Shown piece by piece: positions 323 to 9,227 of a stretch of 32,130 nucleotides of DNA (positions within the stretch are counted from its first letter, which is position 1; every line of letters begins with the position of its first letter). The notes under the pieces are model-generated. The model was not told the origin of the DNA and searched no databases. It saw nothing but the letters and a program-made list of their open reading frames with translations. The stretch covers positions 1-32,130 of the forward strand of contig CAIZLD010000066.1 of assembly GCA_903933715.1 (NCBI GenBank). Direction: 5' to 3'. The stretch comes from an uncultured Spartobacteria bacterium (GTDB taxonomy: Bacteria > Verrucomicrobiota > Verrucomicrobiia > Chthoniobacterales > Chthoniobacteraceae). The position numbers and the translations under genes are program-made.

Positions 323-916
323 TCATGAAGCGCTTTTGATGTTCAAGCGTTCCAGCAAATCGCGAAGAATTTTCCTGGCTCGGTAGAGCCGGGTTTCGAC
401 AGCCTTGGGGCTGCAATTCAGGACGCCCGAGATTTCCTCGTACGAAAGATTCTCGTATTCAAACAATAACACCACGGTCTTGAGATCGTGGGGCAGGCTT
501 TGAATGCTTTGTTTGACGCACCGGGCGGTGTCGTTGTCGGCGGCGGTGTCCAGCGGGGTTCCACCCGTGCTTGGAAACGTGTCGGCGGCATCCGAGGGGC
601 CGCCGCTCCCATGATCGCGTGCCAGCATGACGGTCGGGTGACGCTTTTCCCACCGGATATAGTTTTTGCAGAGATTGCTGGCAATGGTGAACAGCCAGCT
701 CGAAAATTTCGCACTCGGGCGGTAGGCGTGCCGGTTTTGATAGACCCGGACAAACGTCTCTTGCGCCAGATCGAGCGCTTCCTCGTGATTGCCGATATAC
801 CGGTAGATGAACCGGACCAGCGGGGTCTGCCACTGGTTCATGATGAGGTTCAAGGCGGAATCGTCCCCATTCTGCAAACGAAGCATCAGGCTGGGGTTGT
901 TGGGTCCGGTCTCCAT
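323..916 (-). CDS. ECF sigma factor, CnrH-like
   Basis: A 197-aa RNA polymerase sigma factor of the extracytoplasmic-function type. It has only the two expected domains. Region 2 spans roughly residues 25-95, with the core-binding/-10 stretch LDLAQETFVRVYQNR followed by FSSWLFTIASNLCKNYIR. Region 4 spans roughly 140-190, with a helix-turn-helix around LSYEEISGVLNCSPKAVETR. The two are joined by an Asp/Gly/Ser-rich linker. The ATG at 916 lies 26 bp after the stop of the metal-sensor-like gene. It is therefore the last gene of a three-gene operon: membrane protein, periplasmic sensor, sigma. In Cupriavidus CnrYXH the sigma is held by membrane-bound CnrY and released when CnrX senses metal. The same logic is inferred here. 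The likely targets are the two mirror-image promoter elements at 1766-1794 and 1848-1876. The sigma assignment is firm; the Cnr analogy rests on gene order. Confidence 0.93.
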   Translation of the reverse strand: METGPNNPSLMLRLQNGDDSALNLIMNQWQTPLVRFIYRYIGNHEEALDLAQETFVRVYQNRHAYRPSAKFSSWLFTIASNLCKNYIRWEKRHPTVMLARDHGSGGPSDAADTFPSTGGTPLDTAADNDTARCVKQSIQSLPHDLKTVVLLFEYENLSYEEISGVLNCSPKAVETRLYRARKILRDLLERLNIKSAS

Positions 917-942: not shown

Positions 943-1410
943 TTACTTCGTCACCAGGGTTGCGTGTTCCATTCCAGAGCTCACGATGCGCCCGGTGGCC
1001 ATTTTGATATACCGCCGACCTTCTTCCGGGGGCATCTCGGCACTTACGGCATAAACGTGCCGCAACATCGCCACCCGGCATTCATTCTGTAACAAGGCCC
1101 ATTCTTTGAGGGCAGCTTCGGTTTCCGGGGTCGCCGTGCTGTTGGAGTCGATGAGGGCGCGGACTTTCGCATTCGCTTCGGCAATGCGCCGGCACATCCG
1201 CTCGCAGGTCGGACGATAATCGCCGTGCATCTGCGCGATCCTGGCGTATTGCGCATCGGAAAGATGGTATTCCCTTTTTAGCCAAACCATGCCGGCGTTC
1301 GGGTGCTCCATCATGCACTTGGCGGGGCGGGTCGCCAGCTCGTAGGAAACAAGATAACCGGCCAGCGATACCGCCGCGGTGACAAGCAGGATGAGAAGGG
1401 CTCGCCTCAT
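943..1410 (-). CDS. Periplasmic heavy-metal sensor-like protein (CnrX/Spy-type fold)
   Basis: A 155-aa protein starting at the ATG at 1410. Earlier in-frame starts would run through the upstream gene. One N-terminal membrane helix (about residues 4-22) anchors a helical periplasmic domain of the metal-resistance/CnrX/CpxP type. The pattern LSDAQYARIAQMHGDY, then YRPTCERMCRRI, then a C-terminal hairpin with MLRHVY is typical. Candidate metal ligands are C32, M33, M34, H36, M61, H62, C69, C73 (a C-x3-C pair on one helix), C111 and H118. By my alignment H118 matches CnrX His119, but the position of CnrX Met123 is Val and the CnrX N-terminal His pair is not conserved. Metal specificity has therefore probably changed, perhaps to a thiophilic ion. 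Its ATG overlaps the upstream gene's stop (ATGA), which implies translational coupling. The role as signal receiver for the sigma is inferred from context. Confidence 0.8.
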   Translation of the reverse strand: MRRALLILLVTAAVSLAGYLVSYELATRPAKCMMEHPNAGMVWLKREYHLSDAQYARIAQMHGDYRPTCERMCRRIAEANAKVRALIDSNSTATPETEAALKEWALLQNECRVAMLRHVYAVSAEMPPEEGRRYIKMATGRIVSSGMEHATLVTK

Positions 1411-1727
1411 GTCGAATGGCTCATGTGGGCAAGCGGGTTGATGGTTTCCAGGTACCGCGCTTCCAATTCTTTCCCCTTCATCACGTTCGTATCCTGCGCC
1501 TGCATATAAGCCAATGCGATGCTGAGGGTGAGGCCCAGCGTAACGAGGGCGGGAGCCAGATGGGGTTTGCAAAACTCCGCGGCCACCCAGTCGCGAAGCT
1601 GGTCCCACAACGGGCGGCGGGAGCTTTCTCTCGCGGCGATTTGCGCCCACACGTTCGCCTGGAAGCGGGGCGGAATTTCAACCTTGACCGTCCAGGTCGG
1701 GAAAAGTTGGTTTTCGTCAGAGTTCAT
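1407..1727 (-). CDS. Small single-pass membrane protein, candidate anti-sigma factor (CnrY-like)
   Basis: A 106-aa protein starting at the ATG at 1727. The frame extends upstream into the promoter element, so longer starts were rejected. Residues 1-57 are predicted cytoplasmic and include a PPRFQANVWAQIAARE segment. One hydrophobic helix (about 58-76) follows, then a short periplasmic tail. Size, topology and first position in an operon with a periplasmic metal-binding protein and an ECF sigma match CnrY. I cannot show sequence homology to CnrY by eye, so the anti-sigma role is inference from architecture. No Shine-Dalgarno site precedes the ATG. The predicted leader from the promoter element is about 30 nt. 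Confidence 0.65.
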   Translation of the reverse strand: MNSDENQLFPTWTVKVEIPPRFQANVWAQIAARESSRRPLWDQLRDWVAAEFCKPHLAPALVTLGLTLSIALAYMQAQDTNVMKGKELEARYLETINPLAHMSHST

Positions 1728-1765: not shown

Positions 1766-1794
1766 TAAAACACCCCAAAACTGCCAAACCCTTG
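1766..1794 (-). promoter_or_regulatory. Predicted ECF-sigma promoter of the sensor-sigma operon
   Basis: Read on the minus strand: a T-tract, CAAGGG (1794-1789), 15 bases, then GTGTTTTA (1773-1766). The ATG of the first operon gene follows 38 bases later. The same words with the same 15-base spacing occur in mirror image at 1848-1876. Conserved blocks with fixed spacing upstream of both divergent transcripts are the signature of a shared sigma factor. Autoregulation by the ECF sigma of this operon is inferred. Confidence 0.65.
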
Positions 1795-1847
1795 AAAAAA
1801 TTCAACACCCCATTGGGCATCCCTGAAAAGCAGGATCAAATTTTTTT

Positions 1848-1876
1848 CAAGGGTTTTTGCCAAACCGGGTGTTTTA
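1848..1876 (+). promoter_or_regulatory. Predicted ECF-sigma promoter of the efflux arm
   Basis: Plus-strand copy of the element: T-tract, CAAGGG (1848-1853), 15 bases, GTGTTTTA (1869-1876). The ATG of the small metal-binding protein follows 37 bases later. The flanking T-tract and GGGTTT are also shared with the minus-strand copy, while the spacer differs. This argues that the two blocks are the conserved functional parts. Confidence 0.65.
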
Positions 1877-1913: not shown

Positions 1914-2117
1914 ATGAAACAAATTCTTTCAATAGCTCTTCTGTTCACAGCTCTTGCGATTTCCCCGGTGATCGCCCATGCCCAAAACGGGGAAAAACCC
2001 AAATCGGGCGCGCCCGCCGCCGCTCAAAAATATACCTGCCCCATGCACCTTGAGGTTATCTCCGAGAAGCCGGGCAAATGCCCGAAATGCGGAATGAATC
2101 TTGTTCCCTTGAAATAG
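1914..2117 (+). CDS. Secreted heavy-metal-binding-domain miniprotein
   Basis: A 67-aa protein. The ATG at 1914 gives a clean signal peptide (Lys, hydrophobic core, cleavage probably after AHA at 21-23). Starting further upstream would spoil it and overlap the promoter. The mature part is one heavy-metal-binding domain: YTCPMH (C42, M44, H45) and CPKCGM (C56, C59, M61). The same domain sits at the N terminus of the pump adaptor encoded 1.4 kb downstream. As first gene of the efflux arm and predicted periplasmic, it may hand metal (probably Cu(I) or Ag(I)) to the pump, the job CusF does in E. coli. No CusF-like gene is present in the window. The chaperone role is inferred; the domain is clear. 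No Shine-Dalgarno site is visible. Confidence 0.8.
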   Translation: MKQILSIALLFTALAISPVIAHAQNGEKPKSGAPAAAQKYTCPMHLEVISEKPGKCPKCGMNLVPLK

Positions 2118-2221: not shown

Positions 2222-3484
2222 ATGAAACGGTCCCTGTTTTTTGCCATTCTGATGTTCTCCCTGGTCCAGGGACTCTTGGCCGCGGAGCCGCTTTCCAAAG
2301 ACGCCCTGTTGCGGACAGCCCTCCGGGATAATCCATCGCTCAAAGCAGCCCGCGCCCGTTGGGAGATGATGAAGCAGCGCGTGCCCCAGGCAAAGGCCTG
2401 GGACGATTTGATGGCGGGGGTTGATCTTCAACGGACGGGGACAACCAATCCGTTCAAGGTCTCGGATGTGGAATGGATGGTTTCTCAGACCCTCCCCATC
2501 TCCGGGAAAAACTTGAGCCGGGCGCGGGCCTCGGTCGCGGAGGCGCTGGGCGCGTTTCAGGAATTTCGGCGTGTTCAACTCGATCTCGTGACGCAGGTTC
2601 AGGCAGCTTACTTCCGGCTCGCCGGAGCGTACGGGCAACTCGAAATCAACCAACGCAACCAGGAATTGCTCAAGGAGGTTGCCGAAATCAGCCGCAAAAA
2701 ATACGAGGTCGGCACGGCGACGCAATCCGACGTGCTGCTCGCCGAAACGGAGTTGGCGCGACTCTCCGAAGGGAAGTCGATGATCGAGCGCGACATTTCA
2801 GATCAACAAACCCAATTGAACGTGCTGATCAACTGTCCGGCCCGTACGCCGGTTGCAAGACCGGAACCTCTGGCCTTTCGGGCATCGCCCTGGTCATCCG
2901 GGAAAGTGGAAGCGGTGGTGGCGGCTTGCCGCCCCGAACTGCTGATGGCCTGGCGCAAAATCGAGGCCGAGAAAGCCAGGCTTCAACTGGCGCACCGCCA
3001 ATGGATCCCTGACCCGGCCATTCAGATCAAAGCCCGCGAGTTTGCCGGAAAAACCGGCATCCAGGAATACGATACGGGGATTTTTTTCAGCGTGCCGTGG
3101 GCGAACGAGAGGAAATATTCCGCCGGGGTAGCGGAGGCCGAAGAGAGCCTTGCGAGCGCCCGGCACGAGTACGAAGCGGCGCAAACGGCAGCCTCGGGGC
3201 TCGTGCGGAACCAACTCAAAAAAATCGAGACCTTCGCGACCAACTACCGGCTTTTTCATGACCGGATTGCGCCGATAGCCAGATCGAGCATGGAAACGAC
3301 CCGCGCCGGGTATGAAACCGAAAAGAGCAGTTTTCTGGAACTCATCACCGCCCGGCGGACTTTACAGGAGATCGACTCCGCCAGCTTAAATCAGCTCATT
3401 GAACACCAGGTAGCCATCGCGGAACTGGAAGCCATCCTCGGCGTCTCAAGCTACCTTCAGTCCTCACCAGACACCTCGAAATGA
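2222..3484 (+). CDS. cusC: TolC-family outer-membrane channel of the RND pump (CusC/CzcC type)
   Basis: A 420-aa outer-membrane efflux protein with an N-terminal signal peptide ending near LLAAEP and two long alpha-helical OEP repeats (roughly residues 30-215 and 220-410). Typical motifs are NPSLKAARARWE near the start and a long coiled segment around QAAYFRLAGAYGQLEINQRNQ. There is no lipobox cysteine, so it is not lipidated like E. coli CusC. The start is supported by purine-rich AGGAGGAG at 2193-2200 and AAAGGA at 2205-2210. It overlaps the adaptor gene by ATGA, so the two are translated together. With the adaptor and RND pump it would form the tripartite channel that expels periplasmic metal through the outer membrane. 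The family is firm; the Cus label rests on its partners. Confidence 0.9.
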   Translation: MKRSLFFAILMFSLVQGLLAAEPLSKDALLRTALRDNPSLKAARARWEMMKQRVPQAKAWDDLMAGVDLQRTGTTNPFKVSDVEWMVSQTLPISGKNLSRARASVAEALGAFQEFRRVQLDLVTQVQAAYFRLAGAYGQLEINQRNQELLKEVAEISRKKYEVGTATQSDVLLAETELARLSEGKSMIERDISDQQTQLNVLINCPARTPVARPEPLAFRASPWSSGKVEAVVAACRPELLMAWRKIEAEKARLQLAHRQWIPDPAIQIKAREFAGKTGIQEYDTGIFFSVPWANERKYSAGVAEAEESLASARHEYEAAQTAASGLVRNQLKKIETFATNYRLFHDRIAPIARSSMETTRAGYETEKSSFLELITARRTLQEIDSASLNQLIEHQVAIAELEAILGVSSYLQSSPDTSK

Positions 3485-4845
3485 AATACCTCGCGCGCAT
3501 TTTGATCCTGCTTCTTGCCGGCCTTGCCCCGTTGGGCATCGTCTCCTGCTCCAAGCCGGGCCAGCCCCCATCCGCTTCCCAGGCCAAGACGCTTTACACC
3601 TGCGGCATGCACCCCCAGATCGTTCAGGACCACCCCGGCGACTGCCCCATCTGCGGAATGCATTTGGAACCGGTTCGCCAACAAGCTGCCGCCGCAACTC
3701 CCGGAGAGCGCAAAATCAAATTTTACAAATCGACCATGATGCCCGGCGAGATCAGCCAAAAACCGGGTAAGGACAGCATGGGGATGGAGATGGCGCCCGT
3801 TTATGAAAACGAGGCCGGGGCGGCGGAAACTTCGACCCTTTCGATTGACCCTGTGACCGTGCAGAACATGGGCATCCGCACGGCGGAAGTCACCCGGGGG
3901 CCGCTACGCAAGCTCATCCGAACCGTGGGCGTTGTTGATTATAACGAAACCGCGCTGACCGATGTCACCGTGAAATACAAGGGATGGATCGAGAAGCTGT
4001 TGGTTGATGCAACGGGCCAGGAAGTAAAAAAGGGAGATCCGCTCTTTGAGATTTACTCGCCCGACTTGGTGACCGCCCAAAATGAATACTTGATCGCGCT
4101 GGGAGCGGGTGCGGGGTCGGCTAATCTGAAAGCCAGCGCGCTTCGGAAGCTCAAAAATTTCGATGTCTCAGCGGATCAAATCGCCACGCTGGAACGGACC
4201 CATGAAATCAAAAAGACGCTGACGGTCACCGCCCCCGGCAGCGGCATCGTCGTGGAAAAGATGGCTGTGCAAGGGCAGATGGTGGACGCCGGGATGAAGC
4301 TCTACCGCCTGGCGGACCTGTCGCTGGTCTGGGTGCAGTCCCAGATTTATGAGCAGGATCTCCCGTATGTGAAGCCCGGGCAGGAAGCGGAGGTCACGCT
4401 GACCTATCTGCCGGACCGCAAGTTCCAGGGGCATCTCACCTATTTATACCCGATGCTCGACGAGAAGACCCGGACCGCAAAGGTTCGGATGGAGTTTCAA
4501 AATCCCGGCCTGTTGCTCAAGCCGGGCATGTTCGCGAATGTCGTTTTGAAAGCAGATATTGACCCTGCCGCACTGCTTGTGCCCGATTCCGCCATCCTGC
4601 GCAGCGGCGAAAAGAATACGGTGTTTGTGGCGCTCGACGGGGGCAGGTTTGATCCGCGCACGGTGGTGATCGGTGCGCGCGGGGAGGGGAATACCTACCA
4701 GGTTTTAAAAGGGCTCAACGAAGGAGAACGAGTGGTGACTTCGGGCCAGTTCATGCTCGATTCGGAAAGCCAGTTGAACGAGGCCATCCAGAAAATGAGG
4801 GAGCCGGGCGGCACCGCAACGCCCCAGCCCGCGCCTGCACCTTAA
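3481..4845 (+). CDS. cusB: RND periplasmic adaptor lipoprotein with heavy-metal-binding domains (CusB type)
   Basis: A 454-aa membrane-fusion protein. The signal peptide ends in the lipobox IVSC (Cys23), so it is probably a lipoprotein. A canonical heavy-metal-binding domain follows at about residues 39-64 (YTCGMH...CPICGM). A second, degenerate one lies at about 77-110 (YKSTMMPG...KDSMGMEMAPVY), the KDSMGM form common in CusB proteins. After these come the barrel-sandwich/lipoyl and hairpin regions (VKYKGWIEKLLVDATG; VTAPGSGIVVEKMAVQGQMV) and the beta-barrel (LKPGMFANVVL). It bridges the RND pump and outer-membrane channel and probably passes metal to the pump. The start overlaps the cusC stop, and cusA follows after 12 bp, so this is a tight operon. 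The tail is Pro/Ala-rich. Confidence 0.93.
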   Translation: MKYLARILILLLAGLAPLGIVSCSKPGQPPSASQAKTLYTCGMHPQIVQDHPGDCPICGMHLEPVRQQAAAATPGERKIKFYKSTMMPGEISQKPGKDSMGMEMAPVYENEAGAAETSTLSIDPVTVQNMGIRTAEVTRGPLRKLIRTVGVVDYNETALTDVTVKYKGWIEKLLVDATGQEVKKGDPLFEIYSPDLVTAQNEYLIALGAGAGSANLKASALRKLKNFDVSADQIATLERTHEIKKTLTVTAPGSGIVVEKMAVQGQMVDAGMKLYRLADLSLVWVQSQIYEQDLPYVKPGQEAEVTLTYLPDRKFQGHLTYLYPMLDEKTRTAKVRMEFQNPGLLLKPGMFANVVLKADIDPAALLVPDSAILRSGEKNTVFVALDGGRFDPRTVVIGARGEGNTYQVLKGLNEGERVVTSGQFMLDSESQLNEAIQKMREPGGTATPQPAPAP

Positions 4846-4857
4846 TTAGATCACCCC

Positions 4858-7800
4858 ATGCTCCGCTCAATCATTGATTTTTCGCTCAAGAATAAATTCC
4901 TCGTCCTGCTTGCGACGCTGGCGTTGATCTTCGGCGGCATCTACGCCCTGCGGAATATCCCGCTGGATGCGATCCCCGACCTCTCCGATACGCAGGTCAT
5001 CATCTACACGGAATGGCCGGGGCAGGCTCCGCAGATCGTGCAGGACCAGGTGACCTACCCGATCTCGACGAAGATGCTTTCCGTGCCCAAGGCGAAGGTG
5101 GTGCGCGGCTATTCGTTTTACGGTTTCTCGTTTGTCTACGTGATTTTTGCTGACGGCACCGACCCTTACTGGGCGCGCAGCCGTGTGCTCGAATACCTCA
5201 GCTCACTCTCTTCCCGCCTGCCCAAGAACGTTTCCCCCTCGCTTGGGCCCGATGCCACGGGCGTCGGCTGGGCGTTCATCTATTCGCTCAATTCCAAGGA
5301 ACGCAGCCTCGCGGAGCTACGGTCGTTTCAAGACTGGTATTTGAAATACCAGCTCAACTCCGTCGAAGGGGTCTCCGAGGTGGCTTCCATTGGCGGGTTC
5401 GTGAAGCAGTATCAGGTCACGGTTGATCCGACAAAGCTGCGCGCCTACAACATCCCTCTCTCCGAAGTGAGCAAAGCCATCGAGCGGAGCAACGGCGAGG
5501 TGGGCGGGCGCTCCATTGAGCTGGCCGAGAAAGAGTTCATCCTGCGGGTGCGCGGTTACATCGAGAAAATTGACGATTTACAAAAGGTGGCCGTCGGAGT
5601 GGGCGCCAATGGGACGCCAATCCTGTTGGGAGATGTCGCGAATATCCAACTCGGGCCGGAGATGCGGCGCGGCATCGCGGAGCTTAATGGCGAAGGCGAA
5701 ACCGTGGGCGGGATCGTGGTGGTGCGCTACGGGGCCAATGCCCGGCAGGTGATCAAGGATGCGAAAGCGCGGCTGGACGAGGCGATGAAAGGGCTTCCGC
5801 CCGATGTGACCTACACGGTCGCCTACGACCGGACCGCGCTCATCGACCGCGCCGTAAAGACGCTGGAGGAAAAGCTCGTGGAGGAAAGTCTCGTGGTTGC
5901 GCTGGTGTGTGTCCTTTTCCTGTTGCACTTCCGCAGCGCGCTCGTGGCGATCATCATCCTGCCCGTGGCGGTCCTGATCTCTTTCATGGTGATGTACAAT
6001 CAGGGACTCAGTTCCAACATCATGTCGCTGGGCGGCATTGCCATTGCCATCGGCGCGATGGTCGATGCGGTCATCATCATGATCGAAAACGCCCACAAGC
6101 ACATCGAGCATGACGGCGGCAGGAAGCCCCATTGGGAGATCATCCGGGATGCCAGCGTGGAGGTCGGGCCGACGCTCTTTTATTCGCTGCTGGTCATCAC
6201 GATCTCCTTCGTGCCGGTCTTTGCGTTGCAAGCGCAGGAGGGCCGGCTTTTCAAGCCGCTTGCATTCACAAAGACCTACTCGATGGCCGCCGCTGCGCTG
6301 CTTTCGATAACGCTCGCGCCGATTTTAATGGGCTACTTCATCCGGGGCAAAATGATCCCCGAGGAAAAGAACCCGATCAATCGCCTGCTCATCTGGCTTT
6401 ATCATCCGGTGATCGACTGGGTGATCCGGTTCCGCTGGGCGGTCATTTCCGCCGCAGTGGCCATCGTGGCCTGGGTATTTTTTCCATGGAATAGCCTGGT
6501 GGTTAACCGGCTGCCGGAAGGCCCGTTGAAAACCATGGCCGCCGCCGCGGGCAAGGCGTTCCCGTTCCAGAATCTCGGAAGCGAGTTCATGCCGCCACTC
6601 TACGAAGGCGATCTGCTCTATATGCCGACCACCTTCCCCGGCATCTCGCCCACCAAGGCGCGCGAGGTGCTTCAGCAGACCGACAAACTCATCAAGACCT
6701 TCCCCGAAGTGGAACGGGTCTTTGGCAAGGCAGGCCGTGCCGAGACCGCGACCGATCCCGCTCCCTTCGACATGCTGGAGACCACCATCATGCTCAAGGA
6801 CGAGAAAGAGTGGCCCGCCGTGGAGATCAAGGATGCGGAAGGCAAAGTCATCGCGCATCGGAAGCGGACGCCGGACGAGTTGACCAGCGCCATGAACAGC
6901 GTCGTCCAGATCCCCGGCCTCAACAATGCCTGGACGATGCCGATCAAAACGCGCATCGACATGCTCGCGACCGGTATCAAAACTCCCGTGGGCATCAAGG
7001 TTTCCGGGGCGAACCTCGTCGAGTTGGAACGAATCGCCGAGCAGATCGAAACCATCGTCCGGGGGGTTCCCGGAACTTCGAGCGTCTTTGCCGAGCGTGT
7101 CATGGGCGGCAACTACATCGAGTTCAACATCAACCGCGACCAAATCGCCCGCTACGGTCTTTCCGTGGCCGATGTCCAGGATGTGCTGGAAGTCGCGCTG
7201 GGAGGGATGCCGCTCACAACCACCGTGGAAGGGTTGGAGCGCTACACCGTCAACCTGCGCTACGACCGCGATTACCGGGAGAACCTCGAAGCGTTGCGGG
7301 AAATCATCGTGCCGACCATGCAGGGGGCGCAAATTCCGTTGGGGCAGCTCGCCACGATAAAAACCGTCCGCGCCCCCATGGGGATCAAGAGCGAAGCTGC
7401 CGTGCCCAACGCCTGGATTTACGTGGATGTGAAGAACATCGACATCGGCACCTACGTCCAGATGGCCCGGCGCGCGGTGCAGGAAGCAGTGGCAAAGGGG
7501 ACGCTCAAACTCCCGAGCGGCACCAATGTTTTTTGGAGCGGACAATATGAGTACATGCAACGGGCAAAGCAGAGGCTCATCATTGTGATCCCCATCACGC
7601 TGCTGCTCATCTTCCTGATCATTTATCTCAACACAAAATCGGCAGTAAAGACGGCGATTGTCCTGCTGGCGGTGCCGTTCTCGCTCGTGGGGGCGTTTTG
7701 GATGCTCTATCTCTTCGGTTACAACCTGAGCGTTGCGGTCTGGATTGGGATCATTGCGCTTGCTGGGCTTGATGCCGAAACCGGCGTGGTGATGCTCCTT

Positions 7801-8133
7801 TATCTCGACCTCGCCTACGATGAATGGCGCAAATCGGGGAAACTCAAATCGCTGACCGATTTGCGGGATGCAATTTATCACGGCGCGGTGAAACGGGTCC
7901 GCCCCAAGGCGATGACGGCTGCTGTGATCATTGCGGGGCTACTTCCCATCCTTTGGAGCCACGGCGCGGGAGCCGACGTGATGAAACGCATCGCCACCCC
8001 GATGATCGGCGGTGTTGTCACCTCCACCTTGATGGAACTCATCGTCTATCCGGCCATATTTTTTATCTGGCGTTCACGCCGGATCAAACCAGGCGAGGAA
8101 GCTTCTTTGACCGAAGCTGGAACCGCGAATTAA
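4858..8133 (+). CDS. cusA: Heavy-metal-efflux RND transporter, Cu(I)/Ag(I) type (CusA)
   Basis: A 1091-aa inner-membrane proton/metal antiporter of the HME-RND family. It has the usual twelve-helix plan with two large periplasmic loops. The proton-relay acids in helix 4 are present (D403 and E410 in GAMVDAVIIMIENAHKH). The three methionines that bind Cu(I)/Ag(I) in E. coli CusA (M573, M623, M672) correspond to M589 (DLLYMPTTFPG), M639 (PFDMLETT) and M702 (RIDMLATGIKTP). This supports monovalent copper/silver rather than Zn/Co/Ni as substrate. About 14 extra residues lie between M639 and M702 compared with E. coli. It is the last gene of the efflux operon. No strong terminator follows before the convergent tRNA gene. 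Confidence 0.96.
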   Translation: MLRSIIDFSLKNKFLVLLATLALIFGGIYALRNIPLDAIPDLSDTQVIIYTEWPGQAPQIVQDQVTYPISTKMLSVPKAKVVRGYSFYGFSFVYVIFADGTDPYWARSRVLEYLSSLSSRLPKNVSPSLGPDATGVGWAFIYSLNSKERSLAELRSFQDWYLKYQLNSVEGVSEVASIGGFVKQYQVTVDPTKLRAYNIPLSEVSKAIERSNGEVGGRSIELAEKEFILRVRGYIEKIDDLQKVAVGVGANGTPILLGDVANIQLGPEMRRGIAELNGEGETVGGIVVVRYGANARQVIKDAKARLDEAMKGLPPDVTYTVAYDRTALIDRAVKTLEEKLVEESLVVALVCVLFLLHFRSALVAIIILPVAVLISFMVMYNQGLSSNIMSLGGIAIAIGAMVDAVIIMIENAHKHIEHDGGRKPHWEIIRDASVEVGPTLFYSLLVITISFVPVFALQAQEGRLFKPLAFTKTYSMAAAALLSITLAPILMGYFIRGKMIPEEKNPINRLLIWLYHPVIDWVIRFRWAVISAAVAIVAWVFFPWNSLVVNRLPEGPLKTMAAAAGKAFPFQNLGSEFMPPLYEGDLLYMPTTFPGISPTKAREVLQQTDKLIKTFPEVERVFGKAGRAETATDPAPFDMLETTIMLKDEKEWPAVEIKDAEGKVIAHRKRTPDELTSAMNSVVQIPGLNNAWTMPIKTRIDMLATGIKTPVGIKVSGANLVELERIAEQIETIVRGVPGTSSVFAERVMGGNYIEFNINRDQIARYGLSVADVQDVLEVALGGMPLTTTVEGLERYTVNLRYDRDYRENLEALREIIVPTMQGAQIPLGQLATIKTVRAPMGIKSEAAVPNAWIYVDVKNIDIGTYVQMARRAVQEAVAKGTLKLPSGTNVFWSGQYEYMQRAKQRLIIVIPITLLLIFLIIYLNTKSAVKTAIVLLAVPFSLVGAFWMLYLFGYNLSVAVWIGIIALAGLDAETGVVMLLYLDLAYDEWRKSGKLKSLTDLRDAIYHGAVKRVRPKAMTAAVIIAGLLPILWSHGAGADVMKRIATPMIGGVVTSTLMELIVYPAIFFIWRSRRIKPGEEASLTEAGTAN

Positions 8134-8186
8134 CAAAAAAAGCGCGGCGGCGGTCTGCTCGAATGCGGGGTGGAAACTGGAAAAAA

Positions 8187-8268
8187 TGCCGGGGACAGGA
8201 CTTGAACCTGCACGTCTTGCGACACCAGATCCTAAGTCTGGCGCGTCTGCCAATTTCGCCACCCCGGC
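8187..8268 (-). tRNA. tRNA-Leu(UAG)
   Basis: An 82-nt class II tRNA on the minus strand. The acceptor stem GCCGGGG/CCCCGGC pairs perfectly and is followed by discriminator A. The D-arm region includes GGCGAAATTGGCAGACGC. The anticodon stem CCAGA/TCTGG encloses loop CTTAGGA, giving anticodon UAG. A long variable arm (GTC-GCAA-GAC) is typical of Leu. The T arm is GCAGG-TTCAAGT-CCTGT with one G-U pair. CCA is not encoded. Six Ts follow the 3' end directly (8186-8181 on the minus strand) and may serve as terminator. Confidence 0.97.
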
Positions 8269-8337
8269 GGGAGATTCCCATTCAAAGCGGTTCCCGATTC
8301 GAACCGCAAGCCAATAGATGAGTTTTACTCCTCAAAA

Positions 8338-8375
8338 ACAAGGCGGCCGGAAAAGGGGATCCCTTTTCCGGCCGC
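8338..8375 (-). terminator. Rho-independent terminator of the PVGE-repeat gene
   Basis: A perfect 15-bp stem (8343-8357 with 8361-8375) with a 3-nt GAT loop. On the minus strand it is followed by CTTGTTTTT. It begins 27 bp past the stop of the leftward gene. There is no T-run on the plus strand, so it acts leftward. Confidence 0.85.
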
Positions 8376-8402
8376 ACGACCCTTAAGATAAGCTCCAATC
8401 GG

Positions 8403-9227
8403 TTACTGGGATTTTATTTCCTGACCGCTCTTTTTAAGCGTCGATTTCTGCTGTTTCTGGATGACTTGCTTTTCGCCCACCGGTTTGAGGGTCGTTTTCT
8501 TATATCCCTTTTGGATTTCTGTAAGTTCTCCCACCGGCTTCAGGTTCGCTTTGCGATAGCTCTTTTTTTCGATCCAGGTCCGCTCGCCTTCCGATTTCAG
8601 CATCTTCTGATGCTGATAACTTTTTGTGCTGAAGGTCCGTTCGCCGACCGGCCTTAACATCGCTTTGCGATGGCCTTTCACCGTTATGAATTCTTCCCCG
8701 ACCGGTCTCAACATCGCTTTGCGATGGCTCTTTACCGTGACGAATTCTTCTCCCACCGGCCTTAGCATCCGGTGATGTTTTTTGACGCTGATATACCGTT
8801 CACCCACGGGGCTCAGGTCAGATGTGCGATAGGTTCTGACGGTTGTGAACCGTTCCCCGACCGGCATCAGTCGGGTGCGCGGTTCGGCCCATTGGTTTTC
8901 ATAACTAAAGGTGTCGTAGTCGAGCCGTTCCCCTACCGGAGCAATATAGTTATCCGATGGAGAGAAGGTTCTGCCGACCGCAACAAACGGCGCACTCACG
9001 ATGTGCCCCACCGTGCGGAATGGAGCCAATAGATCCAGTCTCCGCTCAGGCATTGGGCATGTATTGAGTTCCCGTACTGCCAATGGCCTTTCCACGATGC
9101 AAGAAGGCTGCTTGATAATGCACTCTCTCACCGGCCGGACCCGGACAGTCTCCGAAGAGCATCCGCATCCAAAGGCCAAACCAGCCGAAGCGACGGTGAA
9201 GAGGGTTCCGATTAATTGTATTCTCAT
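8403..9227 (-). CDS. Exported protein with ten PVGE-type tandem repeats
   Basis: A 274-aa protein of a family I do not recognise. A signal sequence (residues 1-20) ends in LAFGC; Cys21 could be lipidated, although the lipobox is imperfect. A Cys-containing stretch (C21, C23, C36, C43, C57) follows. From about residue 95 to the end come ten copies of a unit with core L-x-P-V-G-E and a Lys/His/Arg-rich second half. Spacing between cores is 25 residues once, then 17-19. Copies 4 and 5 (LRPVGEEFVTVK and LRPVGEEFITVK) are nearly identical, so recent duplication is likely. Copies 7 and 10 have lost PV (KSEGER, KKSGQE). The last third is strongly basic. Start is firm: GGGAGG lies 8 bases before the ATG. 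A strong terminator follows, so it is monocistronic. A cell-envelope or polyanion-binding role is possible but unproven. Confidence 0.8.
   Translation of the reverse strand: MRIQLIGTLFTVASAGLAFGCGCSSETVRVRPVRECIIKQPSCIVERPLAVRELNTCPMPERRLDLLAPFRTVGHIVSAPFVAVGRTFSPSDNYIAPVGERLDYDTFSYENQWAEPRTRLMPVGERFTTVRTYRTSDLSPVGERYISVKKHHRMLRPVGEEFVTVKSHRKAMLRPVGEEFITVKGHRKAMLRPVGERTFSTKSYQHQKMLKSEGERTWIEKKSYRKANLKPVGELTEIQKGYKKTTLKPVGEKQVIQKQQKSTLKKSGQEIKSQ

Follow-up and report, generated by a model that had tools for sequence, protein, structure and literature searches.

A mirrored pair of candidate ECF sigma promoters between a CnrYXH-like regulatory operon and a CusCBA-like efflux operon

Among described systems, the closest to the locus analysed here is CnrYXH of Cupriavidus metallidurans, a nickel/cobalt ECF circuit with the gene order Y-X-sigma, in which one promoter serves the regulators and another an RND efflux operon. 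Both promoters, cnrYp and cnrCp, are CnrH-dependent, and their mapped starts lie 24 and 25 nt upstream of the respective genes (PMC9045368). In the pMOL28 record, from which their sequences were taken, they read CAAGGG-GGAGTCCTTCGCGCAGC-CGTATA (cnrYp) and CGAGGG-GAAGCATCGACCTGGTC-CGTATA (cnrCp), with N17 between the hexamers in both cases. Canonical ECF promoters of the RpoE/SigW type carry instead GGAAC and GTC or CGTC. The window, by which we mean the whole stretch of 32,130 nt that was analysed, presents the same Y-X-sigma order and the same division of labour between two putative promoters, with the following features:

323..916, minus strand: ECF sigma factor, 197 aa, helix KAVETRLYRAR (Pfam Sigma70_r2 1.8e-18, Sigma70_r4_2 5.7e-15)
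943..1410, minus strand: CnrX-like periplasmic metal sensor, 155 aa, with conserved cysteines (Pfam Metal_resist 7e-11)
1407..1727, minus strand: CnrY-like single-pass membrane anti-sigma, 106 aa, overlapping the next gene (assigned by position, hydrophobic segment and an ortholog-conserved N-terminal motif)
1766..1794, minus strand: predicted promoter of the cnrY-cnrX-sigma operon, -35 CAAGGGTTT at 1794-1786, -10 GGGTGTTTTA at 1775-1766
1848..1876, plus strand: predicted promoter of the HMBD-peptide/OEP/MFP/RND operon, -35 CAAGGGTTT at 1848-1856, -10 GGGTGTTTTA at 1867-1876
1914..2117, plus strand: secreted HMBD peptide, 67 aa, first gene of the efflux operon (Pfam HMBD 4e-14)
2222..3484, plus strand: outer-membrane efflux protein, CusC/CzcC type (Pfam OEP)
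3481..4845, plus strand: periplasmic adaptor with HMBD, CusB type (Pfam HlyD_D23, HMBD)
4858..8133, plus strand: RND metal efflux pump, CusA/CzcA family (TIGR00914, 1155 bits, above cut-off)

The minus-strand operon thus combines a short membrane protein, a Metal_resist sensor and an ECF sigma factor, the gene set of the CnrYXH type. The CnrY-like protein gave no match in Pfam or NCBIfam and a poor, weak alignment with CnrY, and the top seven PDB matches of the sensor were all CnrX or NccX, at weak scores (E 0.005-0.05). The sigma factor, having the sigma2 and sigma4 domains only, belongs to the ECF class (group IV), and is nearer in sequence to RpoE-type structures (PDB E 1e-25) than to CnrH (4cxf, E 1e-7). 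On the other arm, the closest solved structure to the pump is CusA (1147 bits, versus 494 bits for ZneA), and the best NCBIfam model for the adaptor is CusB, with a score under its cut-off. Beyond the pump, an ORF at 8403-9227 on the minus strand encodes a putatively secreted protein in which the pattern LRPVGEEFxTVKxHRKAM is repeated many times.

The pattern CAAGGG-N15-GTGTTTTA has one exact match per strand in the window, reading CAAGGGTTTGGCAGTTTTGGGGTGTTTTA from 1794 to 1766 on the minus strand and CAAGGGTTTTTGCCAAACCGGGTGTTTTA from 1848 to 1876 on the plus strand, and no match in 100 dinucleotide shuffles. The sites lie 38 bp from the ATG at 1727 and 37 bp from that at 1914, in agreement with the preliminary description, which had placed one copy on each strand 37-38 bp before a start codon. 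A T-tract 5' of the -35 block and TTT 3' of it are common to both arms, and identity between the arms over the full 29 nt is 20/29, with shuffled spacers reaching 19. As the arms agree hardly above chance over this length, the signal consists of two blocks at a fixed distance, and such rigid spacing is what a promoter would show, as expected. The earlier statement that T-tracts and GGGTTT are shared while the spacers differ was borne out on both counts, but the borders given to the blocks were not, since evolutionary comparison moves them to approximately (C)RAGGGTTT for the -35 and CGGTGTTTTA for the -10; the best-conserved segments among the relatives compared are RAGGG(T/A)TT and CGG-TGTT. 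Transcription would start near 1759 on the minus strand and 1883 on the plus strand, positions predicted from the 7 nt that separate the -10 from the start in cnrYp and cnrCp.

Both the window and the Cupriavidus promoters have a RAGGG -35, with 16 nt from RAGGG to a 7-base -10 block, and the distance from the -10 to the ATG is similar (37-38 nt in the window, 30-31 nt in Cupriavidus). They differ in layout, tandem in Cupriavidus but divergent and mirrored in the window, and in the -10 block itself, which is CCGTATA in the former and TGTTTTA in the latter; more generally, the window -10 shows TGTT with CGG or GGG just 5' of it, versus the proteobacterial CGTA. Because the window has TGTTTTA at the register where CnrH-dependent promoters have CGTATA, its sites are best regarded as probably functioning like a CnrH-dependent promoter and are not classed as one. 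RpoE/SigW-type promoters share with the window the two-block architecture, a similar spacing and a T-run after the -35 core. In these, however, the sigma4 helix is GTVRSRIFRAR instead of KAVETRLYRAR, and the window -35 has GGG in place of AAC, so the motif was rightly set apart from the GGAAC/GTC type.

A relative of the sensor is present in 32 of 213 genomes of the order, and RAGGG-N15-GTGTT was found before cnrY and/or the divergent gene in G040, G037 and G039 from the same genus, G025 from the same family and G141 from another family. Upstream of the cnrY-like gene the sites are CAAGGG-N15-GTGTTGTA in G040, CGAGGG-N15-GTGTTGTA in G037, and AAAGGG-N15-GTGTTTCA in both G141 and G025. The divergent arm is GAGGG-N15-GTGTTTTA before the HMBD gene in G037. 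G039 also has this arm, ahead of its HMBD gene, as does G025, ahead of a gene for a small secreted protein; in its cnrY arm, which adjoins an assembly gap, G039 shows a weak -10. G040 lacks an adjacent efflux operon; there the cnrY arm stands alone at the locus, and a second site lies on another contig before a gene for a Cys-rich secreted peptide. With a leave-one-genome-out weight matrix the sites ranked first in most loci, usually by >10 bits, the core conserved across relatives being RAGGG(T/A)TT followed, ~10 nt further on, by CGG and a T-rich -10. In remoter families the top matrix matches lie ~5-85 nt 5' of genes for DUF3347-like proteins, a likeness judged by eye, or for short secreted proteins, of which many contain clusters of Cys or Met. 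The preliminary description had held that its proposal would fall if the blocks were not conserved in orthologous intergenic regions; in the orthologous spacers they are conserved, oriented and rigidly spaced, and the proposal withstands this check. Some peculiarities of single genomes were also recorded. In G141 the sigma gene follows the RND gene instead of adjoining the sensor gene, and further downstream, past the cus-like operon, a second promoter copy (L039:15545-15572) stands before the gene for a secreted protein of DUF3347-like type. The sensor match of G040 (L004:1501-1959) contains one in-frame TGA, reflecting either a pseudogene or an assembly error. Strict-pattern matches in G030, G031, G049 and G070 were discarded as apparent chance matches, none of them preceding a metal gene (4 control hits).

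A wider regulon before other metal genes, as had also been anticipated, did not materialise in the window's own genome. The 2.8 Mb assembly, 97% complete, holds no third exact copy of CAAGGG-N15-GTGTTTTA, and a search allowing 3 mismatches gave background only (13 forward and 6 reverse matches, versus 24 and 19 in the control). The best extra match, C63:7612, is inside a glycosyltransferase-like gene and was rejected. With only two convincing sites, the motif is without replication inside that genome.

Related promoters were found in Alphaproteobacteria, on sphingomonad plasmids with Y-X-sigma loci located by copC/copD or copA/copB (e.g. S. xenophagum p4 and Sphingomonas sp. AAP5 p150). There, RAGGG-N16-CGTA, for which chance would give about 0.1 match per 300 nt, is found before the cnrY-like gene, the divergent copC and copA. 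The copC cases have, as in the window, mirrored divergent promoters between the sigma operon and the metal genes, and since such pairs occur in three copper plasmids (L082, L084 and L085), the window is not unique in its mirrored layout. These loci differ from it in driving CopABCD-type genes, not CusCBA, and in their CGTA -10. In L086 the site before cnrY is GAGGG-N16-CGTACC, just beyond the scan pattern, and in L089 the motif is 121 nt from the cnrY ATG; at N16 spacing the motif is absent from L087 (Caulobacter). The occurrence of RAGGG-N16-CGTA before copA as well, beside a CnrYXH-like sigma circuit, in L084, L085, L086, L088 and L089 is an observation suggesting ECF control of copper resistance in these plasmids.

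In phylogenetic trees the sigmas of the order formed one supported group, and the CnrH-like sigmas of Proteobacteria formed another. A single clade of window-type sigmas with CnrH had a p-AU of 0.44, so that sisterhood of the two groups is neither shown nor rejected, and the likeness to the CnrH promoters may have been inherited from a common ancestor or have arisen by convergence between recognition helices that resemble each other. The second tree leaves out L042, a locus of G036 whose sigma match (7995-8538) is in two pieces in seemingly different frames, an apparent frameshift. A search for related loci based on the sigma yielded one useful locus. An Opitutaceae genome holds a relative at 40% identity, which points to Verrucomicrobiota as the probable phylum of the host. 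Within the order, family f12 has a different promoter, GGGGGATT-N11-GGTGAATYAC, upstream of the first gene of the operon, which encodes a Cys-rich peptide, and the sigma4 helix of this family is KAVERRLSHAR (KAVERRISHAR in one case) versus KAVETRLYRAR. In a strict scan of the 213 genomes, 10/10 matches were at f12 loci, with 0 in the reversed control. In the f12 loci L018-L029 (e.g. L018 793-827, on the sensor-gene strand) the promoter is followed by a secreted Cys-rich peptide of 53-59 aa, metallothionein-like and with SCCK at its end. The joint change of helix and promoter is suggestive, though not proof, of sigma/promoter covariation, and as f12 is one clade it counts as a single event. A more general proposal, which we put forward tentatively and with somewhat more doubt than conviction, is that CnrX/CnrY-coupled ECF sigmas have a common non-canonical -35 code across phyla (RAGGG, not GAAC), and that the -35 changes from RAGGGTTT to GGGGGATT where the helix changes from KAVETRLYRAR to KAVERRLSHAR, so that in metal regulons the pairing of sigma and promoter would form a code readable in nature.

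Concerning the inducer, the nickel ligands of CnrX, His, Glu and Met residues including H119 and M123, are only partly retained in the window, where the H of HVFEM is kept, M is replaced by V, and cysteines are conserved instead. The sensors of nearer relatives likewise keep C-x3-C plus a third Cys and lack part of the CnrX nickel set. Cupriavidus combines nickel-type sensor ligands with CnrCBA, the window a cysteine-bearing sensor with a CusA-like pump. Cu(I)/Ag(I) is the probable inducer, as suggested by the type of pump (CusA), by the HMBD domains and by the cysteines that stand in for much of the nickel ligand set.

From sequence comparison, we consider it very likely that the blocks are a divergent pair of ECF sigma promoters, through which the adjacent metal-responsive sigma drives its own control genes and the CusCBA-like efflux operon and is autoregulated. 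A single ECF sigma reading both arms, as the preliminary description had put it, is the best explanation because the blocks are conserved in orthologous spacers, occur singly and oriented before other operons, and match the CnrH promoters in sequence and geometry. The symmetry of the blocks between divergent operons, with a 15-nt perfect inverted repeat (AAACCCTTGAAAAAA / TTTTTTCAAGGGTTT) around a 41-nt centre, could also suggest half-sites of an operator through which a dimeric or looping transcription factor controls both operons. We judge this improbable: elsewhere in the order the motif is single and correctly oriented, at or near Y-X-sigma operons, as befits a promoter and not a symmetric operator; the distance between arms varies from 53 nt in the window to 14-15 nt in G037 and G025; each block has ECF-promoter geometry by itself; and the sigma operon provides the only regulator genes conserved alongside.

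Still less credit is given to the possibility that the blocks are promoters for another sigma, a paralogous ECF or the housekeeping one. The genome does have other ECF-like sigma genes (22-32% identity), but no sigma-70-like promoter was found in 1650-2250, the motif follows loci with the window-type sigma across the order, and it changes where the recognition helix of that sigma changes. Least probable of all is a structural role of the inverted repeat as a cruciform or RNA hairpin (terminator or attenuator). As a single strand the sequence does fold better than its shuffled versions (z -4.9), but both predicted transcripts begin outside the repeat and head away from it, and G025 and Sphingobium have the promoter blocks with no inverted repeat detected. 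As the blocks are conserved and the pairing is not, this idea was rejected, the fold being a by-product of mirrored, nearly identical promoters.

In the divergent-promoter reading, the ECF sigma would be held at the membrane without metal by the CnrY-like anti-sigma and the CnrX-like sensor and, by analogy with CnrYXH, would be released when the sensor binds metal. On each arm RNA polymerase would then recognise RAGGGTTT as the -35 and a CGGTGTTTTA-like block as the -10, with transcription beginning at the two predicted starts. Sigma, anti-sigma and sensor would be raised together with the HMBD-peptide/CusCBA-like operon, in a positive autoregulation.

The locus would therefore represent a CnrH-type autoregulated ECF circuit outside Proteobacteria, probably sensing Cu/Ag. 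This would place a nickel-type circuit known from a few Proteobacteria in another phylum, probably Verrucomicrobiota, and tie it to a pump of the copper/silver type and to small secreted proteins that bind metal. The f12 and window promoters may offer a natural case of sigma/promoter covariation, and the exact promoter signature would be usable to find such regulons in unannotated genomes.
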